Source: an uncultured Bacteroidales bacterium (GTDB taxonomy: Bacteria; Bacteroidota; Bacteroidia; Bacteroidales; UBA932). Taken from it: DNA of 64,000 nt. The position numbers were made by a program, and so were the translations under genes. Below are positions 18,433 to 36,864 of this stretch, piece by piece. The notes under the pieces were generated by a model. That model saw only the letters and a program-made list of their open reading frames with translations. It was not told the DNA's origin and did not search any database. The stretch covers positions 1 through 64,000 of the forward strand of contig CALVDO010000011.1 of assembly GCA_944326355.1 (NCBI GenBank), read 5' to 3'. Every line of letters starts with the position of its first letter. Position 1 is the first letter of the stretch.

Positions 18433-19647
18433 ATGGCATACAGAGTTATTGATCTTTTTGCCGGTGTAGGCGGCTTGAGTTACGGCTTTGCGCACGATGA
18501 CGACTTCGAGATAATTGCAGCCAATGAGATACTTGAGCCGATGGCTCGCGCATACTGTGCCAATCATCCGACCGTGAAGATGTACGCAAAGGACATCCGG
18601 GAGTTCTCAATCGATGATCTGACCCGCGACTTCGGGCTGCGGAAAGGGGATGTCGACATCATTGTAGGAGGTCCGCCGTGTCAGGCCTACTCTACCGTAG
18701 GCAAGAGGAGGGAGGACGACCCCAGAGGGAGACTTTTCACTGAATACCACAGGATTCTGAAGGAGGTGAGGCCGAAACTCTTTGTCTTTGAGAATGTGAA
18801 GGGACTGCTTTCAATGCAGAGGGGCGAACTTATCAAGAGCATCGTGGCCCTGTTTGAGTCCATAGGCTATCATGTCAGCGTGAAGCTGCTCAACGCAGCA
18901 GACTACGGAGCGCCGCAGATCAGGGAAAGGGTCATCCTGGTGGGGACTCTCGACGGCAGGGAGTTCAGCTTCCCGAGACCTACGCACTACAATCCGGAAC
19001 TCGGCATTCCGGCAGAGAGAACCGCCCCGGCAGCCCTAAAGGAATCGGCTGAGGCATCCGATCCGGCATCGGCCATTGCCGGCCAAACGGATTCTACAGG
19101 CACTACAAGTCAGGCAGAGACGGCACTTAAGCCATACGTCACACTCGGCGAGGCACTCGGCGACCTTCCTTCGCTAAAGACCGGGGAATCGGCGACTCAT
19201 TACGCCACCGCCCCTCAAAACGACTACCAGAGGCTGATGCGGAGGAATGCCCCGGAGGAACTGGCTGAGCACGAGGTGCCAAAGAACAGCGACAGGCTAG
19301 TCGCAATCATGGAGGCGCTTCCGGACGGAGGCTCGCCGAAAGACCTGCCTGAGGAACTGAGACCGGCAAGCGGCTTCGCCAACTGCTACTGCAGGCTGTG
19401 GTGGAACAGACCGAGCACCACCATCACCCGCAACCTCGGCTGTCCGTCATCCTCGCGGTGCATCCATCCGAAAGACCCGCGGCCGCTCTCCACAAGGGAA
19501 GGCGCCAGACTTCAGGGCTTCCCGGACGACTACATATTCTGCGGCTCGCGCTCTGACAAGCATCTGCAGATAGGCAACGCCGTTCCCACCCTTCTGTCCG
19601 AAGCGCTCAAGGACGCCGTCAGGGCTCACCTGAAAGGCAGCCGCTGA
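18433..19647 (+). CDS. DNA (cytosine-5-)-methyltransferase, orphan
   Basis: The 404-residue C5 methylase has all main motifs in order: DLFAGVGGL (motif I, 7-15), GGPPCQAYS (motif IV, catalytic Cys83), FENVKGLL (motif VI, 119-126), QIRERVILVG (motif VIII) and IGNAVPTLL (motif X). The variable, target-setting region contains an Ala/Ser/Thr-rich insert (about 197-230) and the conserved RPSTTITRN near its end. No restriction endonuclease or very-short-patch repair gene is adjacent; the next gene is a nucleotidase on the other strand. It is therefore probably a solitary methylase used for epigenetic marking or protection. The target sequence cannot be read from the protein. Confidence 0.93.
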   Translation: MAYRVIDLFAGVGGLSYGFAHDDDFEIIAANEILEPMARAYCANHPTVKMYAKDIREFSIDDLTRDFGLRKGDVDIIVGGPPCQAYSTVGKRREDDPRGRLFTEYHRILKEVRPKLFVFENVKGLLSMQRGELIKSIVALFESIGYHVSVKLLNAADYGAPQIRERVILVGTLDGREFSFPRPTHYNPELGIPAERTAPAALKESAEASDPASAIAGQTDSTGTTSQAETALKPYVTLGEALGDLPSLKTGESATHYATAPQNDYQRLMRRNAPEELAEHEVPKNSDRLVAIMEALPDGGSPKDLPEELRPASGFANCYCRLWWNRPSTTITRNLGCPSSSRCIHPKDPRPLSTREGARLQGFPDDYIFCGSRSDKHLQIGNAVPTLLSEALKDAVRAHLKGSR

Positions 19648-21879: not shown

Positions 21880-24774
21880 TCACACCAGGAGAGTGGTCAG
21901 ATGCTTCGCGACATAGTCTCTGACGTATGCCACGAGCTCAGGAGCATCAATGATCTCGATGCAGGACGCGAGTCCGAGATAGAAGCGGCCGACACCTTTC
22001 ATCGAATATACCTCCGTGTCGAGAAGCCAGCGGTCCGGATCTTCCGTCGGAACGAGAACCTTCCTGGAGTCCGGATATTCCTCAGAAAGTATGTTCTTCG
22101 CCCGGAGATTCAGCCCCAGCACGATGTGAACCGGCTTCTCGCCGCTCATCCTGAATATGTCCATGACACCCTCCCTGTGGCTGGACCTGTATGTCCAGTG
22201 CCTGTCGAGAATCTCAACATTGCGTATGCGGGAAGTGGAGAATACGGCGTTTCTCTGCTTGTCAACATCGTAGCACCACACCTGCGCATATCCGGGACAG
22301 AAGCTGAACGGCTCCACATTGCGGTCGCCCACGGTCCCGCTGCTCGATGAGCTGTAGCCGTGCAGGACCACCTTCCTCTCGTCTGCGATAGCCTCTTTCA
22401 AAGCCATGATGACCTGCTCCTTGTCTCTGTCCGTCATCAGTTTGCGCGAGAGATGCGAACGCGTGGAAAAATCAGTCATCTTTACCGACTCGCTGTTGAT
22501 ACGGATGTAGGCGGAGCCGTCGACCCTGACTATGTCATATTCATACGGAGGTACGGAAATGGCGACCACCCTGCCGCCGTACATCGGCCTCACCGATATG
22601 AGAGACACTATGTTGAGAGAGAAAATCTTTCTCATGTAGTCGGTTATGTAGCGGACGAAGCCGTCTATCCCGTAGTAGTTGCCGTTGATCTTCGTCTCCA
22701 GATGCCTGAGATCCTCAGCTATGCCGCAGACATAGCCCATGTCATTCACCCCGATATACAGAGTGCCGCCCTCCTGCGAATTGAGAAAGGCACAGATGCC
22801 TTTCATTATGTTGAGGGGCTGGCGCTGCTCGCGGGCATTCTGAGGCGCCGTGAAAAACGAGGTCTTGAACTCCTGGCGGGCATTCTCCATGCCGAGATAT
22901 TCTCCGTTGTCCTCCTCGAGATTGGCAGACTCTTCCGTCGCCAATGACAGTGAGCTGACGATCTCTCTCTTGATCACATTGCGCACGGACTTGCTGACCA
23001 CATCCTGAATCCTATTGGCCGCCTGCACGAGGACCGCAACCCTTCTGAGCAGCTGGTCATCCTCATTTTCAAGGATTTCCTCAAGCAGATCGCCGCCCGA
23101 CTCATCTCCGTATGCCGCAAGAATCGAGGCCAGCTTCACCCTTGTCTCGACAAATCCGGTGCTCTCGATGCCATCTGGCTTCTCAAGCCGCGTGACAAGT
23201 CTTTGCTCGCCTCTGGCAAAATGCACGAGATCGGCCAGATAGTCGGAAAGGAAGCCGAGATATGCAGAATCCTTCTCATCACCCGTCACTTCCGACATAA
23301 TCCGCATGAAACAGAGTACGGCGTATTTCTCCGACGGGGCGGACAATTCTCTGTGGCAGATCAGAAGCATTCGGCTCAAGTCCTTCAGCAGGCCGCGCAT
23401 CAGCTCCTCCGACGCCCCGTCCGGGCACTTTTCGGGAGGGAGAACGAACCACTGTATGCAGTCTGCCTTAGTGCGAGCCTCATCAAGCTTAGCAAGGGTC
23501 TCGTCATCAGCATCTTCCTCACTGGCGACAAAGTCCGTGACATTGACATTGATGATGCCGTAGTACTGCCCTTCTCCATAGCCTGTTATGTCGACATGGA
23601 CGATGTCGCCGTCTGTCAGCGGAAGGTCGTCTCTCTCATTGGCATACACCGGAAAACCGTATTCCGTCCAGAGCCTGACCTTGTTTTTTCCGGCCCTGTC
23701 CTTCTTAATCTCTTTGACCGCCGCGAGCATCGTCCCCATCTCTTCGCTGCCTTCGATCACCGCGTCGACAAACCTCTGGTTAAGCCTGAAACGCATCGGA
23801 TTTTCGTTCATGAAGGTAGCCTCGATGACCTGCCCGTCCTTGAGATTGGCGACGAAATCCGCCTCTGTATAGTAAAGGACGCCCTGCGAGAAATGCAGTT
23901 CACCCTCAATCGTCTCGTATTCAGGGCTGACGCTCCTGACTTTCAGATGTCCTCCGCTCCGTCCGACGACCATGACGTCGAGCTGGTCTTCGACCGAATA
24001 GGTCTTCAGCCTGCGTGACTTGATTGCATTGGTCCTTATCTCCCGGAGATAGTCGGAGGTGAAGGATTCGAGACGGTCCAGGTTGCGGCTTTCGGCTTGC
24101 CCGAGCTTGTCTGACTTCGGGGCAAGAATCTGCAGCCTGCTGTCCAGCACATGAAACGACGGAACGAGAGACGCCCGTGCGAAATCGCCTCTTCCGGAGT
24201 ATGCCACCTTCAGCCCCTCGGCGCATATCTCCGCCGAACCGCGCCCTTCATACCATAAAGTGACTGGAGACGAGGAGTTTGACGCTGCTGCAGCACCTAC
24301 GAGCTTCACTGCCAGGACCTGAGGCTGAAGCGAGGTCAGATCTGTCCAGTCGAGACGCAGTTCAGCCCTTCCCGTCAGCATGTCGAGGACCAGGTCCAGA
24401 AGCTCCCGCCTGTGCGACTCCGGGATCAGCGACATCAGCGCCGTAAGGAAGGCGACGCTCACTCTCAAGCGCATGGCAGCATCGGCCTTTATCCCGCTGA
24501 GCAGGAATGCCCCGTAGAGTCTGACGGAAAATTCGGCGTCGGACAAGCCCTCAGTCTCCGGCCCGTCGCGATAGATGGGCACGGAATCACGCCGCTCAAG
24601 CATCTCCCGTACCCTTCGTTCGAGCAGGGAGAGAGTCATGGAATAGAAGCTGTCCTGCCTGTCGGGACTGAAGCTCCCCCTGTGAAGATACTCTATCACC
24701 TTCACAATGTTTCCGTCAATATATTCCGTCTTTATGTCAAGCCACAGGGGCGTCACTGTCTTCTCTTTCGTCAT
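21880..24774 (-). CDS. Large AlbA_2 (Schlafen-like) and WYL domain protein
   Basis: 964 residues. Residues about 1-625 match no family I know. They are partly helical, with beta-rich stretches (about 270-420, e.g. DGDIVHVDITGYGEGQYYG) that could be OB-like. Residues about 628-770 form an AlbA_2/Schlafen-type domain: ENARQEFKTS, then FLNSQEGGTLYIGVNDMGYV. Residues about 797-940 read as a WYL-like domain, with ERKVVLHGYSSSSSG and a beta-rich core. WYL modules bind nucleic acid or nucleotide ligands and often control defence genes; AlbA_2 proteins bind nucleic acids and some are nucleases. It lies 22 bases after the RyR-RCK channel gene, so it is co-transcribed. Likely a cytoplasmic sensor, regulator or nucleic-acid effector of that operon (inference). 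It starts at ATG 24774. Confidence 0.8.
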   Translation of the reverse strand: MTKEKTVTPLWLDIKTEYIDGNIVKVIEYLHRGSFSPDRQDSFYSMTLSLLERRVREMLERRDSVPIYRDGPETEGLSDAEFSVRLYGAFLLSGIKADAAMRLRVSVAFLTALMSLIPESHRRELLDLVLDMLTGRAELRLDWTDLTSLQPQVLAVKLVGAAAASNSSSPVTLWYEGRGSAEICAEGLKVAYSGRGDFARASLVPSFHVLDSRLQILAPKSDKLGQAESRNLDRLESFTSDYLREIRTNAIKSRRLKTYSVEDQLDVMVVGRSGGHLKVRSVSPEYETIEGELHFSQGVLYYTEADFVANLKDGQVIEATFMNENPMRFRLNQRFVDAVIEGSEEMGTMLAAVKEIKKDRAGKNKVRLWTEYGFPVYANERDDLPLTDGDIVHVDITGYGEGQYYGIINVNVTDFVASEEDADDETLAKLDEARTKADCIQWFVLPPEKCPDGASEELMRGLLKDLSRMLLICHRELSAPSEKYAVLCFMRIMSEVTGDEKDSAYLGFLSDYLADLVHFARGEQRLVTRLEKPDGIESTGFVETRVKLASILAAYGDESGGDLLEEILENEDDQLLRRVAVLVQAANRIQDVVSKSVRNVIKREIVSSLSLATEESANLEEDNGEYLGMENARQEFKTSFFTAPQNAREQRQPLNIMKGICAFLNSQEGGTLYIGVNDMGYVCGIAEDLRHLETKINGNYYGIDGFVRYITDYMRKIFSLNIVSLISVRPMYGGRVVAISVPPYEYDIVRVDGSAYIRINSESVKMTDFSTRSHLSRKLMTDRDKEQVIMALKEAIADERKVVLHGYSSSSSGTVGDRNVEPFSFCPGYAQVWCYDVDKQRNAVFSTSRIRNVEILDRHWTYRSSHREGVMDIFRMSGEKPVHIVLGLNLRAKNILSEEYPDSRKVLVPTEDPDRWLLDTEVYSMKGVGRFYLGLASCIEIIDAPELVAYVRDYVAKHLTTLLV

Positions 24775-24796
24775 AAGATTCGATTCAATTGTCCGT

Positions 24797-26971
24797 CTAC
24801 CGGTCGTCTGACTTCCTCTCGCCCGGCTTCAGGTTTCGGCAGATGCGGAATCCGCCGATTCTGAGCATATATGGAAGTCCGTCAATGACATTTCTGTCCT
24901 TCATGCTCTCCTCCGGGCGGAGCCGTATCATCTCGGAATACGGGATTATGAGCGGATGGACGCCGAACACGCCGTCTCTCTTCGGTCCATATCGGAGGCC
25001 GGCGATCGTGCGCTCGGCATTCCAGCGGTGCTTCTCCATCCTCATCATGGCTGAAAGCTCCGCTTCGGAGAGACGTTCTGCAAATTCCGCAGGTGTCACC
25101 TCTTCCTCATCCTCAGGCACTGCGTCCTCAGGGAAGAGGCTGTAGCCCAGAGCCCTGCAATATCCGGAATAAATATCTATCTGGTAGCGGTTTGCCCAGC
25201 GCAGGATCTCGCTCAGCTCAAGCCAGGAGCGATGCGCGAGCCCCTTCATGGCCGCCATCACGGCTTCCGCGGCTGTCCGCATCTGCGCCGCTTCGCACTT
25301 CATCACCTGCGCATAGAGCAGAGACATGAAACTGGCATTATCCGGAGCGCCCTGAGCAAAGAGGCATCCCTCGCGCGCATAAAGCGGGCATTTCACAGCC
25401 TCTCCCCCAGCAGCCGCAAGATTCTCCCTGCACTGGCTGCAGCAGTAGATCTGATTGGCGAACGATGCGAGCTCATCCTGAAGCATGTCCGACTGCATTC
25501 CCTGGTCGAGCATACCGAAAATCTTGACATTGCGGTATTTTCCCGAATCAGAGTCTATCAGTTCCCCCAGATCCGTCTGTATCTCCTGTCTTATCAGCAC
25601 TCTGGAGTCGCTTTCATATACGGCGGAAGGAAGGTTCAGTCCGAGCGAAAGGCTCATGTCGGGCTCGCTTACGCAGACGGCCACCGTCAGCATGCACTCC
25701 GGATCCCGGCTCCAATCCTCCAGCGATGTCCTCATCTGCGGCGAGCACACGTCCGCAGCCACATACTCTATCCTCACGTCGTCAATCTGCCCGTCAAGAT
25801 ACGGGAACTGTGCCCGGAAATAGTCTTTCATCCCGTCCATATCCTTGTCCACCAGCGTGATGACGGTGCGGATACGCTCATCGGACGGAGCTGAATCATC
25901 GTAATTCGCGTAATGACAGATGCGCAGAGCCTCCAGCAGCAGGGCGCGTCCCATCCTCGTAAACCCCACTATCACAAGCCTCACATGGTCACGGGACGGG
26001 GCCGACGCCAGAATCGGCCGGAAGTCCAGCGGGTCATACTTGCCCGCAAATGAGGCGGAATACACGCTCCACAGAAGCCTCGCCCAGTTTTCGAAATAGT
26101 TGAACGGGCGGAAATATATGTTCGGCACATCGTTGCAGCAGTACCATTCCCTCTTGAGAGCCAGCTTCTGGATATTGGAATACGACGGTATGCCGTCAAA
26201 CTGCACAAACACGTTCATCGGCGGCACATCCGGCCGCGAGCCCCGGAGTCCGCTCACGAAGTGAACCAGCTTGATGTTCTTCGAATCGTGGCCGTAAGAA
26301 TTGCCGTCGCCGAGAATATACACCTCGCGTGCTTTGGAGATGTTGAGCCTCTGCAGCTCCTCCTCCGACTCTATGTTTCCGAAATATACCGTAACCGCAT
26401 TCTCCGCGTCTCTTTCGAGCCTCGACCTTATGTTGAGCCGGACCGAAGGTGCGTCAACTCCGCTCATCAGCACGATTTCCGCCCCCGGGGCCTTGGAGTG
26501 CATATCCTTTATGAGGCTTATCGCAATGTCGCTGAAACCTATGATGACATAGTGGTTCCGCTTGTCCTTATATGTGACGCTTCCTGAGCGGACCGCATCC
26601 ACCCGCCTCTCAATGATGTTAGAGATAGTGGAAATGAGCACGCCTCCGAGCAGAATCGAGCCCGCGAGACTCACGATGACAGCAAACAGGCGGCTTCCCC
26701 AGCCCTCCACCGAAGCGATGGCGCCGGGATCTATGAAACTGTTGTAGAGAGCCCAGAAGTTTTCGCCGATGGACATGCCGTTGCCCATCCCTATACGGAA
26801 AATGAGCGCCAGAATGAAAAATATCGCCAGCAGCGACACTATGGAGAGACACAGAAGCGTCAGCTGAGGGCCTATGCCTCCGGATATGGTGCGGTCGACA
26901 TTCTCCTGCGAGAACCACCTGCCGAAAAAGCGGCGCAGTCCTCTGCCGCTCTCATTGTGCCTCGGTCTCAT
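24797..26971 (-). CDS. Two-TM ion-channel-like protein with tandem RCK/TrkA-N modules and C-terminal RyR domain
   Basis: 724 residues. TM1 (about 37-60, LTLLCLSIVSLLAIFFILAL) and TM2 (about 95-118) enclose a pore-loop-like region (ENFWALYNSFIDPGA). Two Rossmann modules follow, with nucleotide-loop-like HYVIIGFSDIA (140-150) and RLVIVGFTRMGRA (331-343), as in Castor/Pollux-type channels. A Cys cluster (CCSQC, CPLYAREGC; about 528-560) may bind metal. The last 80 residues form a RyR domain: MEKHRWNAERTIAGLRYG then HPLIIPYSEM. RyR domains are thought to sense small ligands, possibly nucleotide derivatives. The start overlaps the stop of the small RyR gene by four bases (ATGA). The reading is a ligand-gated channel that could depolarise the inner membrane; this is inference. 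Confidence 0.85.
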   Translation of the reverse strand: MRPRHNESGRGLRRFFGRWFSQENVDRTISGGIGPQLTLLCLSIVSLLAIFFILALIFRIGMGNGMSIGENFWALYNSFIDPGAIASVEGWGSRLFAVIVSLAGSILLGGVLISTISNIIERRVDAVRSGSVTYKDKRNHYVIIGFSDIAISLIKDMHSKAPGAEIVLMSGVDAPSVRLNIRSRLERDAENAVTVYFGNIESEEELQRLNISKAREVYILGDGNSYGHDSKNIKLVHFVSGLRGSRPDVPPMNVFVQFDGIPSYSNIQKLALKREWYCCNDVPNIYFRPFNYFENWARLLWSVYSASFAGKYDPLDFRPILASAPSRDHVRLVIVGFTRMGRALLLEALRICHYANYDDSAPSDERIRTVITLVDKDMDGMKDYFRAQFPYLDGQIDDVRIEYVAADVCSPQMRTSLEDWSRDPECMLTVAVCVSEPDMSLSLGLNLPSAVYESDSRVLIRQEIQTDLGELIDSDSGKYRNVKIFGMLDQGMQSDMLQDELASFANQIYCCSQCRENLAAAGGEAVKCPLYAREGCLFAQGAPDNASFMSLLYAQVMKCEAAQMRTAAEAVMAAMKGLAHRSWLELSEILRWANRYQIDIYSGYCRALGYSLFPEDAVPEDEEEVTPAEFAERLSEAELSAMMRMEKHRWNAERTIAGLRYGPKRDGVFGVHPLIIPYSEMIRLRPEESMKDRNVIDGLPYMLRIGGFRICRNLKPGERKSDDR

Positions 26972-27264
26972 TTCCTGCTGATTGTGAATCCGTAACTGCA
27001 GATCAGCTTAAGAGTCTCCATCGCCGTATTCCTGTCGTATGCCTTCTCCTCCTCCGGCAGCTCGGCGTATGGCACCAGACACGGGTGCTTCCGCTCGCGG
27101 TCATTCCTCTCCGGCCCCCAGGTCCATCCCTCTCTGACCCTTGCGGCGGCCCACACCTCATGCACATTCTCCGCTATCAGCTCCGTAAGCTCCTCCAGCC
27201 CCCCGGGAAGCTCCACACCCGAGAGATCAGCCGGAGACGGGACATATCCGTCATTTGCGTTCAT
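26968..27264 (-). CDS. Stand-alone RyR-domain protein
   Basis: About 98 residues, nearly all one RyR domain: NVHEVWAAARVREGWTWG, then KHPCLVPYAELPEEEKAYD and RNTAMETLKLICSYGF. The W-x-x-x-R, W-x-WG, HPxLVPY and YDR motifs are the prokaryotic RyR pattern. It is the first gene of the operon and overlaps the channel gene by ATGA, so the two are coupled. The start MNANDGYVPSP at 27264 is preferred because the -7-like TAACTTTA at 27304-27311 would leave almost no leader for the upstream ATG at 27294. That longer form would add ten residues. It probably binds the same ligand as the channel's RyR domain, as a sensor, buffer or regulator (inference). Confidence 0.88.
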   Translation of the reverse strand: MNANDGYVPSPADLSGVELPGGLEELTELIAENVHEVWAAARVREGWTWGPERNDRERKHPCLVPYAELPEEEKAYDRNTAMETLKLICSYGFTISRK

Positions 27265-27303
27265 AAGTTTGAATTTAATTCTCAGACGAGACATTTCAAC
27301 TTG

Positions 27304-27379: not shown

Positions 27380-28094
27380 GTGTTCGGTGACGAGAACAAC
27401 ACCGACGTGATCATTGATTTTTTGAATGTGGTGCTGCCTGAGGAGCGGCGTGTCCGGAGTCTGACATTCTCGCGGACGGAGATTCCGGGGTTCACGGCGA
27501 CGAACAAGGCGGTGCGTGCAATACGCGGCGAAGGTGTACGACTCCAACTCGCGGTCGGGGGACAGGCACTACGACCTTCCTCCGGTGTATCTGATCGGCA
27601 TCCTCGCCCGCGACCCGGGCTTCTCCCGGTCCGGCTCGGTGTGGGACGGGCGCTACATCTCCGAGTATACTTTCCGGGAAAAGGAGACGCATGAGGTTGC
27701 GGATGAGACGATAAGTATTATCTTTGTGGAGCTGTACCGCTTCGGGAAAGGCGCGGGAAAGTGCAGAAGCGACCGGGATCGCTGGTGGTACTCGATGAAG
27801 CACCTGAAGGAACTGGAGTCGGTGCCTGCGGCGTTCGGGACCGGATCACTGGACCGCCTTTTCCGGGCGAGCGAGATAGCACAGTTCGACAGCGAGAAAC
27901 GACTGAAATACGAGGAGGACATGATAAGCGAAAGGGACTACATCAACATCCTTGACACTGCCGAGGAGCGGGGTCGCGCCGAGGGCATCTCGAAAGTTGC
28001 CCGCGCTATGCTCAAATCGGGCATGGACATCAAATCGATCTCGTCGCTGACGGGAATGACCGAGGAGCAAATCAAGGCTCTCAGACCGGAGTAG
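27380..28094 (+). pseudogene. Rpn/PD-(D/E)XK family transposase-nuclease, internally deleted
   Basis: The first frame reads VFGDENNTDVIIDFLNVVLP and IPGFTATNKAV. A second frame, open from about 27516, continues YAAKVYDSNSRSGDRHYDL, PVYLIGIL and a tail with RGRAEGISKVARAMLKSG and LTGMTEEQIKAL, the typical C-terminus of these recombination-promoting nucleases. In intact relatives the part between NKAV and YYA.K contains the catalytic D and E-x-K/Q residues; here it is gone, with a frame change at about 27510-27518. The N-terminal start is also missing. It is an inactive relic beside the RyR operon. Confidence 0.8.
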
Positions 28095-28111
28095 CATCTG
28101 CTGAATACGAT

Positions 28112-28132
28112 TTGACCTGCGGCGCAGGTCAA
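28112..28132. terminator. Perfect 9-bp hairpin between convergent genes
   Basis: Arms ttgacctgc and gcaggtcaa flank ggc. No strong T-run follows on either side, so it may be a weak terminator or transcript-stabilising structure. Confidence 0.5.
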
Positions 28133-28157
28133 CACTTCTTCCAGCTGGAAGCCATAG

Positions 28158-28694
28158 TCAAGCCGCCAGCAGAAGAAGGAAAAATGTAATGAAAAATACC
28201 GACAGCCACAGCACAGGTACAACGGCCACGATAAGCCAGTTTTTCCATGTCACCTTTCTCGTTTCCTCCGGAATCAGATCTTTGACCTTGTCCGAAAAGG
28301 AAAAGTAGCAGAAATAGACGATGGACCAGCCGATTGAGATGACCCTGTTGATGGGCGAGCCGACTCCGGACTCGGCGAAATATCCTGTAAAGAGCGTCAT
28401 GATGTTACTAATCAGAAACAACACAGCTATCGACTTGGCCATGAAAACAGCGTCCGGCTTCCTTCTGATGAAGGCCACAAGCGTATATACGCCGAGAACC
28501 TCGAAGAACACATAGACAAGAAGGTCAATATAATAAGCCCATTCAAAGTCGCCATATTCACTCACATCCACCGCCGTGAGATGATACAGCAGCGAGAGGA
28601 CCGGGCTGAACATGAACAAGAAGAGAAAAAACGCGAGCCATCCGGACACTTTTTCTTGCGTAGCCGGATTTTCTGTTAAATCCATAGCTGTCAT
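28158..28694 (-). CDS. Four-TM membrane protein, DUF2569-like
   Basis: The 178-residue protein has four to five hydrophobic segments: GWLAFFLFLFMFSPVLSLLY, the YIDLLVYVFFEVLGVYTLV pair, SIAVLFLISNIMTLFTG and a C-terminal IVAVVPVLWLSVFFITFFLLL. The arrangement and the VTWKNW stretch before the last helix resemble DUF2569 proteins; this is a tentative match. The role is unknown. It starts at ATG 28694, or three codons later at MDLTEN. Its ATG overlaps the stop of the upstream lipoprotein gene (ATGA), so the pair is co-translated. Confidence 0.65.
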   Translation of the reverse strand: MTAMDLTENPATQEKVSGWLAFFLFLFMFSPVLSLLYHLTAVDVSEYGDFEWAYYIDLLVYVFFEVLGVYTLVAFIRRKPDAVFMAKSIAVLFLISNIMTLFTGYFAESGVGSPINRVISIGWSIVYFCYFSFSDKVKDLIPEETRKVTWKNWLIVAVVPVLWLSVFFITFFLLLLAA

Positions 28695-29158
28695 AAATTT
28701 AACTCATCCACAACAACGACATGGACAACCCCCTTGTCGCCACTACCCTGCCATTCAATCTCATCATCAGTGAGCACGCCGCAGCAGGTCAAGTCATACT
28801 CCCCAGACGCAATTCCACCGACTGTATAATCCATCGAATACGGACTCTGCAATTCGAATGTCTCACCGAAGACATCGTATGTGACCGTCCAGGAATAATT
28901 GGTAAAGTCTGTCGGCAAATATGTAAGCCTCAGTACATCTCCCTGATGCACTGCAAGCCGCTCTATCTCTCCGACAGAGATGATTAGCCCCTTGTTAGAC
29001 ATTTCCTCGCCCGTAGTGAGATTCTTGACAGTAAACTTCGCCCCATTGCTATCGTATTCAACATGTATCGTAGTCTGAAACTCAGACTTCACACACGACA
29101 CCAAAAGAGGACATAGACACACAACAAGGGAGATTGCATGGATTAATTTGGTTTTCAT
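28691..29158 (-). CDS. Small lipoprotein of unknown function
   Basis: About 155 residues. The leader MKTKLIHAISLVVCLCP ends at lipobox LLVSC, so it is probably lipid-anchored. The mature part is beta-rich (TTIHVEYDSNGAKFTVKN, YSWTVTYDVFGETFEL) and may be an immunoglobulin-like or beta-sandwich fold. It starts at ATG 29158, where the leader begins; ATG 29185 would add nine residues in front of it. It is first in a two-gene unit with the DUF2569-like protein. No family is recognised. Confidence 0.7.
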   Translation of the reverse strand: MKTKLIHAISLVVCLCPLLVSCVKSEFQTTIHVEYDSNGAKFTVKNLTTGEEMSNKGLIISVGEIERLAVHQGDVLRLTYLPTDFTNYSWTVTYDVFGETFELQSPYSMDYTVGGIASGEYDLTCCGVLTDDEIEWQGSGDKGVVHVVVVDELNL

Positions 29159-29315
29159 AAGTTTATCAAGAATATTTATATCCATAGTTTAAAATCAAAA
29201 TGCATTGCCGTCTCAAACCAGTTTCTGACAAAGAAACCGCAGAGGTATTTTAAAGAGGCATTCAAGACGGCAATGTCGGTTACTGCAAACGAACAGGTAC
29301 TCCAAGTCGGGAATA

Positions 29316-29330
29316 TCTCCCACGGGGAGA
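29316..29330. repeat. 15-bp hairpin, first of an inverted pair
   Basis: tctccc-acg-gggaga is self-complementary. It matches the reverse complement of 29481-29495 with one mismatch. Confidence 0.6.
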
Positions 29331-29480
29331 ACCACAAATCAGAGCAAATGTAGATAAATTTCTCGAAACAATGGGATTATATCTCCATTTCTTTTTTGTG
29401 AATTTTTAAAAATCTGCCCTTGCTCCTTTAAATATCTAAAGGGAAACACGCTTCTACGCTAATAGAATGCGTTTTTATCC

Positions 29481-29495
29481 TCTCCCCGCGGGAGA
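29481..29495. repeat. 15-bp hairpin, second of an inverted pair
   Basis: tctccc-cgc-gggaga is the near-perfect partner of 29316-29330. A short T-run (attttt) follows, so it could act as a terminator. Confidence 0.55.
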
Positions 29496-29632
29496 TTGAC
29501 ATTTTTCCACATCGACTTACGGCATTACCTGCTATTTTTTTCTCGCATTGCCGATTTCCCTTTTTTCATTTTCTCGCATTACCGGCTTTACTTTTCACGG
29601 CGGCCTCATCGGCGTTTCTGGCGGTCGGTACA

Positions 29633-29682
29633 GGATGCCGCATCACAGCATTCCTCTGGGGTGGATGCCGCATCACAGCATT
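29633..29682. repeat. Direct repeat of a 20-bp unit, 30 bp apart
   Basis: ggatgccgcatcacagcatt occurs at 29633-29652 and 29663-29682 without mismatch. The second copy overlaps the stop of the recombinase remnant. Confidence 0.85.
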
Positions 29683-29835
29683 TCAAGTATCATGCGGTTG
29701 GCGTCGTCGACTTCACCACGGTCGATGGAGGCGAGGTAGATCAGGGTGGTCTTGTCGGAATCGTGGCCGAGGCCTTCGCTGATGACGGGGATGGGCACGT
29801 GACGGTCGCGGGCGATGGTGGCCCAGGGAGTGATT
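29673..29835 (-). pseudogene. C-terminal fragment of a tyrosine recombinase
   Basis: About 50 codons read TPWATIARDRHVPIPVISEG, then LGHDSDKTTLIYLASIDRG and a stop at 29673. This is the last part of a phage-integrase/XerC-type enzyme: the H-x-x-R region is lost, the LGH is kept, and the nucleophile Tyr is the Y of IYLAS. Bacteroides transposon integrases have very similar tails. Upstream the homology stops and MATE sequence begins on the other strand, so it is a truncated relic. Confidence 0.75.
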
Positions 29836-29845
29836 GCCTCAGCAT

Positions 29846-30420
29846 CCGTCGGAGTGGTTGAGAAGATTATAGTCTTCGCCATGCTTCCTCCTGCCGCCAT
29901 ATCCTCGGCAGTCGCCGCAATGACTGCCCAGAACTACGGTGCAGGACTCACGGACAGGATGAGCAGCTGCCTGCGATCAGGAATCGGCATGGCGCTGGTG
30001 TTCGGCGTCGGCATATGTCTGTATTCGCAGTTCCTCCCGGAGACCCTCACCGGCCTGTTCACAAGAGACGGAGAAGTCATCACAATGGCCGCGGACTATC
30101 TCAGAGGCTACAGCATCGACTGCATAATGGTCAGCTTCGTGTTCTGCATCAACTCCTGGTTCAGCGGTCAGGGCAACTCGATCTTCCCTATGATTCACAG
30201 CCTCATAGCGACATTCTTATTCAGAATTCCGCTTTCATGGCTGTGCAGCCGCCTCGACCCTTACGGACTCCATCTGATGGGCTATGCGCCGCCATTCTCC
30301 ACGATGGTCTCCCTGATCATCTGCATCTTCTACATCAGATACTGGCGCCGCCGCAGGAGGCCGGCCCCCGGGCAAGACGACGCAGTAGAGGCCGTCGCCG
30401 CGACGACGGCACAGAACTAA
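29846..30420 (+). pseudogene. MATE multidrug efflux transporter, 5' half missing
   Basis: From about 29846 the frame reads SVGVVEKIIVFAMLPPAAIS, then SAVAAMTAQNYGAGLTDRM, FSGQGNSIFPMIHSL and RIPLSWLC, matching the C-terminal half of MATE family exporters. About 190 residues remain of some 450. Upstream of the junction the same strand is only antisense to the recombinase remnant, so the N-terminal six helices are gone. The frame start at 29815 is an accident. Six-helix halves are unlikely to transport. Confidence 0.8.
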
Positions 30421-31554: not shown

Positions 31555-34500
31555 ATGGCCTCCACATCAGCCTCCAGAGAAATCAGGATCTTCCTGTCAT
31601 CCACATTCTCCGACATGCAGGAGACTCGCAACTACCTCACCAAGAAGATATTTCCGAAGATAGAGAAAGAATGCTCCGACAGGGGCGTGCGATTCACCGT
31701 GCTCGACCTCAGATGGGGCATCACCGAAAGCGAGTCAAAGACCGGCAAAGTCATTGAGATCTGCATCGACGAGATTAACCGCACCAGGCCGTTCTTCATA
31801 GGGCTCGTGGGCGACAGATACGGATGGATACCGGACGAGGAGGAGATGAGGCGCAACCGCCATCTGGAGGAAAAATACCCTTGGGTACGGGAATACATGA
31901 AGAGAGGGGTCAGCATCACGGAAATGGAGATGCAGTATGGAGTGCTGGACAGCGACATCCCCGTGGAGGCATTCTTCTTCCTGAAGGACGGCAATTCAGA
32001 GACGGGAAGTCAGGAGGAGGCGGCCAAGCTCGCCGCCCTGAAGGCGAAAATCCGAGAAAAGGCGGCGGAGGGAGTCTGCAGCGCGGAGACATATCACTCA
32101 ATCGAGCAGCTTGGACGACTCGTGCACGAAAGACTCATGGCAATGATCGACACAAAGTTTCCTGCCGACATGAAGCTGAGCCCCTTCGACAGGTTCATGC
32201 TCAGGCAGGAGAGCGAGCTTGAAGAATACAGAAACGGCTATATCGACCTCTGCGGCAGGACGGATCACATCGACAGCCTGCTTGGAGACTGCCGCATATT
32301 CCTTGCCGACGAGAGCGGCAGCGGAAAGAGCGCCCTGCTCGCAAACTGCGGCAGAAATGCTGAAATCAGAATCATCAGGACAAACATAAACGACTCCATT
32401 AATTCAGTCGGACAGCTGATGAACATATTGCTCCGCTGTCTCGGACTGACCGACTCCGATCCGTGTGATGCGCGCCGGACGGAGGATACTGCCCCGGACA
32501 TCGCAGCAGTATTCAACGAAAAAGGCTTCTCGGAAGATGTGGTATGGATAATCGACGGTCTCGAAAAGCTGCCTGCTGCAAATATGACCGCTCTGCTGCC
32601 GCTCTTCAAACTGCCCGACCAGGTAAAGACCGTAATCTCGGCCGATGACAAGACTTTCGAGTCACTTCGCGACTATGCCGGAGATTTCACCTGCATCGGC
32701 GTCTCCAGTCTGAACAAGGCTGAGATGGTTCATCTCATCCGCCATACGCTTCAGAGACACGCCAAGAAGCTCACCGCAGAAATGGAGCTGCACATCATGA
32801 GATGCGACTTCCTTTCAAAGCCGTCAATGCTCAAAGTCTTCATCCACGCCCTGGTACAATTCGGTATATTTGAAGAGCTGGACTCATTCATCCACAGGCT
32901 GACGGGAGCAGGCTCGGAGACAGAATTCATGGGCAAGATTCTCGAAATAGCGGAAGACGACTTCGGCAGGGAGGACATTGAGCATCTTCTGGGCACTCTG
33001 GCCTGTGCCTCATGCGGCCTCAACGAAAAGCAGATTATGGAAAAATGGAATTACACTCCCCTCGCCTGGTCTGCCCTGTACAGTGCCGTAGAAGTGTTCA
33101 TATACAGGCAGAACGGCTGCATAATTCTCCGCAGCGGTTTCCGGAGCTTCGTAAAAGACCGCTACCTTGCCGACCCTTCCGCGGCCTCCTCGGCCCGGAA
33201 CACCACCGTCAGTCTGCTGCGGGAAGAGATGTGCACTGCCCGTAGAGAGCTCTTCAGCCGCCGCAGCGGAATGTCCTTAACGGACAGGATGATTATGAAA
33301 ATCTGGGGTATCTGGCTGACGGACAAGGACATCAGCAGAAGCTGCAACATATTTCGAGAGATTGTGCTGCTACTCATTGATTCAGGGCAATGGAAGCTTG
33401 CCGCCGATGTGCTCGTTTCCGAGAATCTGGTCTTCAGCATGGACTGCTTCCGAGGTTACGAATACTTCTCAGTGCTGCACGGCTTACTCTCGCACGGCTT
33501 CAATCCCTGCCGTCTGTTTACATTCAGAGACATGCTGCTGTTCTCCATGATCGGTAAAGACGAATCTGCGCAGATGCTGTGGAGCATGTTTACAAATCTG
33601 TCCAGAGCCTCGGCTGACATCCTCCCGAAACTTCGGAGACACTTCTCGAGGATGCCTCTGGGAAAAGATTTCAAGCGAAGAATCCTGAGTGTGCTGGACG
33701 AATGCTTCACAGGCTCCGGCACTGATGTAGACACCACAGACTTCGAGGATAGCTGGATTCCGGGAAAAGACGATACAGACCTGTCGAGACTGGCTGTTTT
33801 CTTCGACAGAATTGTAGTAATGGAAAACCTTGAGCATGTGAAGAAGATACTTCAGAAGTCGGAGGAAATGACCAAGTCGCTTCCGGACAACGCCATGACG
33901 AAGACTTTTTTCATGATGTTCATCCCGATATGTCTTCTACGGCTCGGCAAGACGGATGAAGCCAGGGAACAATACGGCAGGCTGCTGGACAACTGCGAGT
34001 CGGATCCGGCCATATTCGCCATGCTGAGATTTGAGTTTGCATTCACTGAGAAAGACTGGAAGTTGTGCCGTGAAACAGCCGAAGAGGTCCGGCATATGGC
34101 GGGAATCTTAACCGGAGAGATGAAAAACGGAGGTCGGATGAGATATCTGCGGATGCTTACGGCCATCGGCGAGTCCTGGTCTTACGACGGCTACGACAGA
34201 GACAGGCTGATACAGGAATATCGTGATGCATGCGCAGACAATGCCGGTTTCCTGTCCTACTTTGCCGACTGGCTGTCCGTCAAAAACCTGTATATCGCAG
34301 CGGCACAAGTCTACGGAATCGCCTCTGAAGTATCGGAGACTGAGATACTCAAAGGATATTACCAATATAAAAAAGGGAAAATTCTGCAAAGAGAAGCCAG
34401 GACACGATACAACATAGCTTGGACACAATCACAATACGACAGAGATATGAGACGGACGCTCATGCAGTCGGCCGGCACGGCGATGGAAGAGGCGGTAGGT

Positions 34501-36864
34501 CACTTTCAGACTGCAGGAGAAGAGGGTCGGGAATGGGTTGGCGACTCTCTTGATCAGGCCGGAATATGCTTCACTGAAGCCGGAGAGACGGACAAGGCCA
34601 TAGAAATCATCCGCCGCAGGCTACAGGTCTCAAAACAGATGGAAAACAAGGCAAACGGCGGAGAAATTGCCGCCTCATATAATTACGCGGCAATCCTGTG
34701 CCATAGTCTCTGTACAGCAAAAGACATAGCAGAAACTGCTGAACTGAAGGAGATTGCCGCAATAGGATGCGACACGATGATCAAGGTCCTACAGAACGCT
34801 CCCGACGAAATCACCTACCTGAAGAATCTCGTGACCATCATGGTTGACGTCAAAGCCAACGGACTCCTCTCGACAGACAGGCTAGGCGATGTCACAGGCC
34901 GACTGGAGACCATGCTCATCAGTAAGGACGGCACTTCGGCAGCAGGCAGGCACAAAGAGAGCGGCGGCTCACCAGAAGCCGGTGTCCTGGACTCGCTTCC
35001 GGCTGAAACAGCAGACAGGCTGTTCAGTCTTGCCTGTGTGACACGCCGCGGAATCCTCGCCGGCAGACTTATGAAGAATGCAGTCGCCACCGGACATAAA
35101 ATCAATGGCAGGGAAGACGAATGGAACATCGGGCTCGTCGACATCTGCTCTGATGACCCGGGAAAAGTCCGGCAAGGCGCATCTGCGGTCACAGATACTC
35201 TGCTGAGCATCTATGAAAAGAACCCGCTGCAGCAGTGGTGGGACGAAGTCCCGCCCGAGACAGGCCGTCCTATGGTAAAAAGCCTCTGCCGGGAAAGAGG
35301 AACAGATGGTCTTCTCCTGCTCTGGTGCATAGCCAGATGCGAAAAGAACGATGCTGAAGCTGACGCCATCCGGGATAAGATAAGGGACATCGTCACTTCA
35401 CCAGCCCGCATAAAAAATACAATGTCGTCACTTCCTTCCGGTGACTCGGATATCGATGTCGAAAAGACGGATGACGAGGAGATGGATCTCCTCGACCGCT
35501 TCCTCATCCTCCATATTCATTATCAAGCATTCACAATGGAAGAATTCATTGTGTTTCAAACCCGTACCTGTCGTGACTGGCGCCCGGACCTCTTTCCCGA
35601 GACTGAGATATGCTCCTCCTGTCTTCGGCTCTGCATAGAGGAAACCGACTGGGATCACGGACATCCTTTCCTATATAAATTCATAGCAGAGACCATAAAG
35701 GGAAGCGTGAATCCGGCAGAGACGCTGCTCACATTCATAGAAAACATCTCAAGCCCACAGGAAGAGACATTCAGAATCCTGATGCAGCAGAAATTCAATG
35801 CGCGGACGCAATGGGTCATAGAGACAGTCATGATTCCGGCAGGACTTCTTGACACGGGAGAGATGACACTCGACGATGTGCAGATGCAGCGTCTGAGAAC
35901 AGGCATAGGAGCTTGTCTGAAGATGCTGACAGATGATCCGGAGGCGGATTCATACGATCTCAGGCGGCTGCATGAAGTGTGCATGAGGTACGGACTTACA
36001 CCGGACACGAAGATTCTCTCCGCCCTGCTTGAGGATGCTCATGGAGAGGAATTCATCGCATTGGTCAGGAAAATGGAGACAGACGGCTACGAGCCGGACG
36101 CGGATATACTCGGGCGCATCGTCAGTGAAGACCTCCGCAATGGTGACATCGCCGGAGCCGCCGAGGATTTCGAGCGGTTCCGCCTGAAGGCAGCCGACGA
36201 CGAAAGCTATAGTACCGCCGTCGCATTTCTCCGGGGACTGCTTGAGACAGCCAGGGGAGAATACGAAAAGGGCTACGTCTCATTCACAGAGGTTGACAGA
36301 GCCTCCGAAGATGATGACAGGCCGGAACACTGCATCAGGATATGGGGGAACATAGATGACTTCGACATCTGCCTATACTTCCACCTTTTCGTCTGCGCAG
36401 CCTATTCGGGACGTCATACCGAAGCACTTGAACTGGCTCCAAAAGTCTTCAGATACAGAACTTGCGATTATTCTTGGGATATAGACAGTCTGCCGACTTG
36501 CCTTCTCCTGCTCAAGAACGGACTTTACGATGATGCTGCCATCCTATATGCAAGCAAGATAAACAATAACATTGAGAACGGGATAGATGTCGTCAAAGAG
36601 ATGATGTCGGAAGATGCCGATCCGGACAAGGATGACATCTCGTACACATTCTTTGAAACGACATACATCAGAGCAATCCTCATGCTGATACACATTGAGA
36701 AGGCCGTCCATGCCGCCTCAGCCGGAGAGCCTCAGGCAAAGCTTGTGCTGTCAATTGCAAAAGGACTCATGCGCGGATGGCTGCCTCCGATGTGCGCCTT
36801 TGAGTACGACAAGGCCAAGACTCTCATTTATGGGACTGACCTCGGGAATCCGGAGCATGAATGA
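31555..36864 (+). CDS. Giant DUF4062-STAND NTPase with repeat-rich C-terminus
   Basis: 1769 residues. The N-terminal 100 residues are a DUF4062 domain as in TEP1/NPHP3-like proteins: REIRIFLSSTFSDMQETRNY, LDLRWGITESES, FFIGLVGDRYGWIPD. An AAA/STAND ATPase follows: P-loop ESGSGKSALL (about 253-262), Walker B-like VVWIIDGLEKL (about 330) and a helical lid. The remaining roughly 1200 residues are helical, TPR/PPR-like repeats, e.g. KKILQKSEEMTKSL and EYEKGYVSF. STAND proteins act as switches that oligomerise after the repeat region meets a trigger; many are antiphage sensors. It is a single-gene unit, divergent from the dehydrogenase. No toxin-like effector other than DUF4062 is seen. The ATG at 31555 gives MASTSASREIRIF. 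A defence role is inference. Confidence 0.85.
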   Translation: MASTSASREIRIFLSSTFSDMQETRNYLTKKIFPKIEKECSDRGVRFTVLDLRWGITESESKTGKVIEICIDEINRTRPFFIGLVGDRYGWIPDEEEMRRNRHLEEKYPWVREYMKRGVSITEMEMQYGVLDSDIPVEAFFFLKDGNSETGSQEEAAKLAALKAKIREKAAEGVCSAETYHSIEQLGRLVHERLMAMIDTKFPADMKLSPFDRFMLRQESELEEYRNGYIDLCGRTDHIDSLLGDCRIFLADESGSGKSALLANCGRNAEIRIIRTNINDSINSVGQLMNILLRCLGLTDSDPCDARRTEDTAPDIAAVFNEKGFSEDVVWIIDGLEKLPAANMTALLPLFKLPDQVKTVISADDKTFESLRDYAGDFTCIGVSSLNKAEMVHLIRHTLQRHAKKLTAEMELHIMRCDFLSKPSMLKVFIHALVQFGIFEELDSFIHRLTGAGSETEFMGKILEIAEDDFGREDIEHLLGTLACASCGLNEKQIMEKWNYTPLAWSALYSAVEVFIYRQNGCIILRSGFRSFVKDRYLADPSAASSARNTTVSLLREEMCTARRELFSRRSGMSLTDRMIMKIWGIWLTDKDISRSCNIFREIVLLLIDSGQWKLAADVLVSENLVFSMDCFRGYEYFSVLHGLLSHGFNPCRLFTFRDMLLFSMIGKDESAQMLWSMFTNLSRASADILPKLRRHFSRMPLGKDFKRRILSVLDECFTGSGTDVDTTDFEDSWIPGKDDTDLSRLAVFFDRIVVMENLEHVKKILQKSEEMTKSLPDNAMTKTFFMMFIPICLLRLGKTDEAREQYGRLLDNCESDPAIFAMLRFEFAFTEKDWKLCRETAEEVRHMAGILTGEMKNGGRMRYLRMLTAIGESWSYDGYDRDRLIQEYRDACADNAGFLSYFADWLSVKNLYIAAAQVYGIASEVSETEILKGYYQYKKGKILQREARTRYNIAWTQSQYDRDMRRTLMQSAGTAMEEAVGHFQTAGEEGREWVGDSLDQAGICFTEAGETDKAIEIIRRRLQVSKQMENKANGGEIAASYNYAAILCHSLCTAKDIAETAELKEIAAIGCDTMIKVLQNAPDEITYLKNLVTIMVDVKANGLLSTDRLGDVTGRLETMLISKDGTSAAGRHKESGGSPEAGVLDSLPAETADRLFSLACVTRRGILAGRLMKNAVATGHKINGREDEWNIGLVDICSDDPGKVRQGASAVTDTLLSIYEKNPLQQWWDEVPPETGRPMVKSLCRERGTDGLLLLWCIARCEKNDAEADAIRDKIRDIVTSPARIKNTMSSLPSGDSDIDVEKTDDEEMDLLDRFLILHIHYQAFTMEEFIVFQTRTCRDWRPDLFPETEICSSCLRLCIEETDWDHGHPFLYKFIAETIKGSVNPAETLLTFIENISSPQEETFRILMQQKFNARTQWVIETVMIPAGLLDTGEMTLDDVQMQRLRTGIGACLKMLTDDPEADSYDLRRLHEVCMRYGLTPDTKILSALLEDAHGEEFIALVRKMETDGYEPDADILGRIVSEDLRNGDIAGAAEDFERFRLKAADDESYSTAVAFLRGLLETARGEYEKGYVSFTEVDRASEDDDRPEHCIRIWGNIDDFDICLYFHLFVCAAYSGRHTEALELAPKVFRYRTCDYSWDIDSLPTCLLLLKNGLYDDAAILYASKINNNIENGIDVVKEMMSEDADPDKDDISYTFFETTYIRAILMLIHIEKAVHAASAGEPQAKLVLSIAKGLMRGWLPPMCAFEYDKAKTLIYGTDLGNPEHE

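Follow-up and report, generated by a model that had tools for sequence, protein, structure and literature searches.

The subject of this work is a 64,000-nucleotide stretch of DNA, hereafter the window, from an uncultured Bacteroidales bacterium of the UBA932 lineage (contig CALVDO010000011.1, positions 1 to 64,000; contig 11 of a genome of 2.40 Mb in 37 contigs), in which a small gene for a stand-alone ryanodine receptor (RyR) domain, P0001, stands next to the gene of a channel subunit, P0002, that itself ends in a RyR domain. In our best reading this pair of stand-alone RyR protein and RyR-tailed channel is the conserved functional unit, and not the trio with a third gene, P0003, for an AlbA_2/WYL protein, that a preliminary description of the same DNA had proposed. 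The arrangement of three minus-strand genes given there is confirmed by the open reading frames (ORFs), P0001 and P0002 overlapping by 4 bases (ATGA) and P0003 following behind the channel gene after a gap of 22 bases. That two of the genes carry RyR domains is likewise borne out, for P0001 by the Pfam family PF02026 and for the tail of P0002 by matches to RyR structures.

Relatives of the channel were identified by scanning genome contigs with a six-sequence channel alignment (A3), from which the best 80 of 140 relatives, with titles naming Bacteroidota, were kept; the same scan with P0002 alone as query returned none. After removal of 13 near-duplicates, 108 channel proteins gave 95 non-redundant loci including the window; their genes were predicted with a greedy ORF script, and contig ends truncate many of the loci. 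In 87 of the 95 the label 'tail' was assigned by a crude pattern, which overlooks L112 and L114 at least. Of these loci 43 have a separate RyR gene immediately beside the channel gene, and 50 have one within three genes of it. All 43 adjacent RyR genes are on the channel strand, 25 upstream and 18 downstream, and the gap to the channel gene has a median of 4 bases and is within 30 bases in 37 cases. Within the window subfamily (at least 44% identity; nine non-redundant loci with the window) seven loci have an adjacent RyR gene. Relatives of P0002 occur in 23 of 295 genomes of the same order (8 of the 23 without a RyR tail or not examined for one) and in 17 of 199 genomes of the same family, and PF02026 was found in 14 of these 17 as compared to 10 of the 182 family genomes without the channel. 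A viral origin of the pair was considered and rejected, as scans of viral contigs with alignment A3 and with P0001, which reach close relatives only, gave no pattern-level relative.

P0001 matches PF02026 with E = 7.5e-35 (119.5 bits, cut-off 27.4) and is close to the solved bacterial protein 3nrt (E = 5.1e-37); its true start may be at position 27264, because homologues begin near Met11. PADLOC gave no match for P0001 or P0002. A 2026 preprint describes phage proteins of the PF02026 family that bind isomers of cyclic ADP-ribose (cADPR) via H75, W78, H100, and D117 (PMC13232231). According to this source six of eight phage RyR homologues tested bound cADPR isomers, the ligand being 2'/3'cADPR, and RyDEP of DyoEdafos alone cleaves it (PMC13232231). 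P0001 has the RyDEP ligand residues as H45, W48, H70, and D87 with identical spacing, and the H/W/H/D set is invariant in all 18 aligned stand-alone RyR proteins, P0001 included. RyDEP, as presented in the preprint, is a free viral evasion protein, whereas the domain found here is bacterial and also ends a channel (PMC13232231). RyR3 R12 is reported to bind AMP-PCP and ADP, a Trp lying on the adenine ring (PMC12627627). In one locus (L098, 5424-6215) the stand-alone RyR domain is followed, as judged by eye, by a hydrophobic stretch and a charged tail at the C-terminal end, so that this RyR protein may be membrane-bound.

For P0002 a two-transmembrane (2TM) channel with a double Rossmann fold had been proposed, and the AlphaFold model (61 sequences; mean predicted local distance difference test score (pLDDT) 89.4, predicted template modelling score (pTM) 0.84) shows these parts, with TM1, pore helix, and TM2 followed by two Rossmann domains and the RyR tail (Table 1). 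The top fold matches of the model are GsuK (Z 17.5; 355 residues, root-mean-square deviation 4.8), MtDMI1 (Z 17.4; 306 residues, 3.5), and CASTOR (Z 16.6; 297 residues, 3.9), which are tied within a Z of 1. At the level of sequence profiles, the TrkA_N and Slo-like_RCK matches of P0002 are under the Pfam cut-offs, Slo-like_RCK reaching E <= 0.01 in 13 of 18 aligned relatives, and NCBIfam gives a sub-cut-off match to a potassium channel only. PF02026 was matched in Pfam neither by P0002 nor by its tail alone; the tail matches the RyR structures 6uhi (E = 4.3e-11 with the whole sequence as query) and 3nrt, a putative bacterial ryanodine receptor (E = 9e-5).

The order of 2TM pore, RCK1, and RCK2, seen in the model and in the fold match, and the nucleotide motif in RCK2 relate P0002 to GsuK, a dual-RCK K+ channel of Geobacter sulfurreducens described as activated by NAD+ and ADP and inhibited by Ca2+ (PMC3510474). 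P0002 differs from this K+ channel in having a RyR domain at its end and no TVGYG-type filter, the filter region reading F-I-D-P-G-A. Position 81 is Asp in 49 and Asn in 9 of 61 channel relatives. With the plant nuclear channels CASTOR and DMI1 P0002 shares the gating-ring fold and a filter Asp instead of TVGYG; CASTOR, with the filter AD265S(A)GNHA, is reported to be Ca2+-selective, and its D265N variant gave no current (PMC6697748). Of the D-[SA]-G-N filter type P0002 has the Asp, D81, and 22 of the 61 relatives have D-x-G-N, whereas the window has D-P-G-A; the solved CASTOR and DMI1 gating rings, as matched, differ further in having no RyR tail. Permeation of Ca2+ through P0002 is possible in view of the CASTOR-like fold and the filter Asp present in most relatives.

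The channel has two potential ligand sites. In the RyR tail all 61 sequences have W650, H672, and D692; because the patterns of the channel scan contained a RyR-tail motif, selection accounts in part for the conservation of E646, R649, and W650, H672 and D692 lying outside that motif. The first ligand position is His in 51 of the 61 tails and Lys in 10, namely in the window and nine relatives (L107-L115). In RCK2 G336 is present in 61/61, G341 in 43/61, and an acidic residue at position 375 in 59/61 sequences, with the middle Gly of the GxGxxG loop replaced by Ser or Thr in 52/61.

The channel genes are frequently found next to genes of NAD-consuming enzyme families. Using our own profiles, which started from seed sequences of the loci themselves, were refined by iteration, and miss some genes such as the TIR-STING gene of L107, we found a TIR-superfamily gene (TIR, SIR2-TIR, DUF4062, or TIR-like) within three genes of the channel in 42 of the 95 loci, 44 of 47 such neighbours being on the channel strand. 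The rate per gene is 9.7% at a distance of one gene, 11.1% at two, 6.2% at three, 4.5% at four, and 0-2.3% at five to eight. As these profiles were seeded from the same loci, a test restricted to Pfam TIR_2 and DUF4062 is the independent one: of 30 genomes with RyR-tailed channels (L188 of genome G332 being counted here, not among the 95 loci), 8 have such a hit no more than 5 kb from the channel, versus 0.31 expected from hit density. This expectation assumes scattered hits although defence genes cluster, so that its P value should not be read literally. Excluding the window genome leaves 7 of 29 versus 0.30 expected; distances refer to the domain, and taking the nearest gene end instead would add G302 and G211. 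RyR-less relatives below the channel threshold (L043-L048) have TIR-type genes in none of six neighbourhoods and none of eight channel contigs, a small control with some short contigs.

Individual loci illustrate this linkage. In L104 the channel gene is followed by SIR2-TIR and STAND-WD40 genes with overlaps of 20 and 4 bases, in L035 and L095 a RyR gene is followed by a TIR gene, in L030 a TIR-TPR gene precedes the channel, and in L106 a DUF4062-WD40 gene precedes RyR and channel genes. Within the window subfamily, a metagenome-assembled Phocaeicola genome (L107, 1485-4924) has a TIR-STING gene (PF10137, 1.9e-19; prok_STING, 2e-10), a RyR gene, and the channel gene in a row with gaps of 30 and 2 bases, on a contig that begins 1.5 kb upstream. 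In L111 the channel is followed by a gene whose DUF4062 match (0.0054) is under the cut-off. L112 has a convergent DUF4062-NACHT-TPR gene at a distance of about 0.8 kb, separated from the channel by one small gene, and L114 shows the same arrangement by our own profile. The window itself contains a gene with a DUF4062 match of 1.2e-11 (45.1 bits, cut-off 24.7) that continues into NTPase and TPR repeats (Table 1), and its product is 30% identical over 567 amino acids (aa) to the DUF4062 protein beside the L112 channel. The DUF4062-NTPase class, which the preliminary description had not included, is a likelier partner of the pair than P0003.

Table 1. Position and strand in the window of the pair, its domains, and the genes discussed with it
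Feature	Position	Strand	Details
P0001, stand-alone RyR domain protein	26968..27294	-	108 aa; PF02026, 3nrt match
P0002, 2TM-pore/RCK1/RCK2/RyR channel subunit	24797..26971	-	724 aa; model and fold matches
P0002 pore region, residues 33-129	26585..26875	-	TM1 33-57, pore helix 68-80, filter D81-P-G-A, TM2 91-129 (model)
P0002 tandem RCK domains, about residues 138-500	25472..26560	-	RCK2 with G336, G341, D375
P0002 RyR tail, residues 638-713	24833..25060	-	W650, H672, D692; K647 replaces RyDEP catalytic His
P0003, AlbA_2 (residues 630-767)/WYL (about 780-956) protein	21880..24774	-	964 aa
DUF4062 (TIR-like NADase family)-NTPase-TPR gene, candidate signal-making partner	31555..36864	+	1769 aa; DUF4062 match; putative link to the pair

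Some further features of these loci were recorded. Between the pair and the DUF4062 gene of the window (27516-30420) there is an ORF of the PD-(D/E)XK transposase family, aligned only from profile position 88, together with ORFs resembling by eye a truncated MATE transporter, and a C5 cytosine DNA methyltransferase gene (PF00145, 5.2e-74) is located at 18433-19647. Contig 16 of G332 carries six TIR_2 matches and, at 10000-45000 (L188 and L189), an extended run of genes on one strand that comprises the channel, several TIR genes, and two proteins fused to RyR. In G303 (L191, 4840-10875) the gene of a RyR-ended protein of 811 aa precedes, in this order, a TIR/FGE-sulfatase gene, a small gene, and a gene for a caspase (Peptidase_C14) protein. 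A PrsW-type intramembrane protease (PF13367, 2.5e-32) adjoins the channel in L038 (8519-9349), genes resembling it by eye are found in L176 (12053-12784) and L186 (12131-12874), and in L189 (7823-8875) one such similar gene is fused to RyR.

We propose that the pair is a receptor and effector gated by a NAD-derived nucleotide from TIR-type enzymes and that opening of the pore arrests the cell, a mechanism for which we see about as much reason to believe as to doubt. A TIR-superfamily enzyme, in the window perhaps the DUF4062-NTPase-TPR protein, would be switched on, for example by a phage, and would convert NAD+ to an adenine-containing product, either ADP-ribose or an isomer of cyclic ADP-ribose. 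This product would be sensed by the RyR domains, perhaps together with RCK2, upon which the 2TM channel, presumably a tetramer, would open, and the resulting flow of ions through the membrane (perhaps of Ca2+ or another cation) would arrest the cell. Most likely the stand-alone RyR protein would be a co-receptor with the RyR tail of the channel, or else a brake that removes the signal. As relatives of the pair often adjoin NAD-consuming enzyme families, a channel opened by an anti-viral alarm may be its role. Of the ligand-gated conflict channel suggested in the preliminary description this proposal keeps the channel, favoured by the RyR-type ligand site, the recurring pair, and the enriched TIR-type neighbours, and abandons the trio.

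Several observations weigh against this proposal. The DUF4062 gene of the window is 4.6 kb away from the channel on the opposite strand with unrelated genes between, in 23 of the 95 loci the three genes to either side of the channel include no RyR and no TIR-type gene, and the channel neighbours in L034 and L040 are MutS-like and PPDK_N proteins. Two of the nine window-subfamily loci, one of them at a contig end, have no adjacent RyR gene, and the tail of P0002 keeps three of the four RyDEP ligand residues, K647 replacing the first His. Moreover, linkage need not mean a shared pathway because defence genes cluster. DUF4062 proteins are described as NADases in phage defence (Swarozyc), and one of them, KpSwz, as killing via NAD+ depletion without a channel (PMC13174449); this activity fits the proposal, yet it shows that such enzymes can act on their own.

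The candidate partner gene shares with Swarozyc the DUF4062 domain, whereas Swarozyc is reported to act by channel-free NAD+ depletion through a portal-binding auxiliary domain (PMC13174449). Thoeris resembles the proposed system in that a TIR enzyme makes an ADP-ribose-type signal for a separate effector; it differs in that its known effectors are of the SIR2-SLOG or Macro type, with no RyR channel described. A TIR gene and the channel occur together in some relatives only, and in the window no TIR-type gene is located within three genes of the channel, the nearest TIR-like domain being the DUF4062 domain at 4.6 kb. A more far-reaching version of the proposal, which we regard as rather unlikely in its entirety, would be a Bacteroidota family of RyR-gated channels, similar to CASTOR and permeable to cations (perhaps Ca2+), that open in response to linear or cyclic ADP-ribose from neighbouring TIR, SIR2-TIR, TIR-STING, or DUF4062 enzymes, with the second RyR protein as co-receptor or brake, forming an immune counterpart of the animal cADPR-ryanodine-receptor pathway.

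Among the alternatives the one that survives best, unlikely as it may be, concerns P0001 alone, which could be a signal-clearing enzyme or sponge, that is, an off-switch or immunity factor, and not a co-receptor. The catalytic H/D pair of RyDEP is kept in 18 of 18 stand-alone RyR proteins while the tails of the window subfamily have Lys, and most tested phage homologues act, according to the preprint, as binders, with six of eight binding and one cleaving (PMC13232231). However, the His is also kept in 51 of 61 channel tails, and the tight pairing with the channel fits a subunit, too.

It is less probable still that P0002 is an ordinary nucleotide-regulated channel, GsuK-like and without a function in immunity, which tunes the flux of K+ or another cation to NAD+ or ADP, the TIR genes just riding along in variable regions. 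Its fold and RCK2 resemble GsuK, and the 23 loci without a RyR or TIR-type partner within three genes agree with this explanation, but the patchy occurrence of the channel in the order and the family, the tight same-strand linkage to TIR-type genes, and the lack of TIR linkage in the small RyR-less control (eight genomes) argue against it. We give even less credit to the idea that the channel is a sensor of NAD+ depletion, with RCK2 responding when neighbouring NADases lower the NAD+ level and the RyR domains having no more than a modulating part. The neighbours do belong to NADase families, and the conserved G336, G341, and acidic residue 375 are reminiscent of the nucleotide-binding RCK2 of GsuK; the substitution of the middle Gly of GxGxxG in most sequences speaks against it, however, and NAD+ depletion would be expected to close the channel, because NAD+ opens GsuK.

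Finally, we turn to P0003. Its AlbA_2 domain, as named in the preliminary description, was recovered in Pfam (E = 5.2e-13), while the WYL domain is weak in P0003 itself (15.2 bits, below the cut-off of 21.8) and is backed by a PADLOC WYL match (2.4e-7) and by Pfam WYL matches in four of six P0003 family members, P0003 not being among the four; a model built from two sequences had a mean pLDDT of 35.9 and was unusable. At a threshold of 1e-10 P0003 is matched in 48 of the 199 same-family genomes, the window genome included, mostly in the C-terminal WYL region only. Besides the window, full-length relatives are found in G318, G468, G399, and G488, and longer partial ones in G409, G456, and G332. 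None of the four genomes with full-length relatives has a channel match at the same threshold, and in G332 and G395 the channel and a partial P0003 match are on different contigs. The genes next to the full-length relatives differ, being an AAA_14/DUF4143 gene in L087 and L089 and in L088 a WYL regulator with which P0003 shows no meaningful alignment. Another full-length relative (42% identity) lies on an IMG/VR viral contig (L187, 5001-7844) among genes that by eye resemble phage recombination genes, and the 12.8 kb examined around it contain neither a channel nor a RyR gene. In the pre-set test of co-occurrence no P0003 relative was detected in the stretches examined around the 94 other channel genes, many of which are cut by contig ends. 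We thus rejected the RyR/channel/AlbA_2-WYL trio as a unit, since the three genes do not co-occur in the other loci searched, and P0003 looks like a separate cassette that is an unrelated neighbour of the pair in the window genome. That it serves a three-gene defence system as its sensor or regulator, as first suggested from its position on the same strand directly behind the channel gene, is very improbable given these empty neighbourhoods and the differing, in one case viral, settings of its full-length relatives.

No description of the RyR-channel pair was found in the open-access literature, as judged by titles, abstracts, and term counts. Bacterial RyR domains were reportedly predicted in a 2015 paper in Nucleic Acids Research to be ligand-sensing parts of nucleotide-centred conflict systems, and part of the RyR-sensor idea was thus probably put forward there already. 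In animals it is still debated whether RyR domains are receptors of cADPR-type signals, a question to which the phage preprint returns (PMC13232231) and which could be tested directly with a small bacterial pair that combines an intact ligand site with a channel and TIR-type neighbours. If the proposed mechanism is true, an ion-channel effector would be added to TIR-based immunity, and bacterial RyR domains would gain a function.

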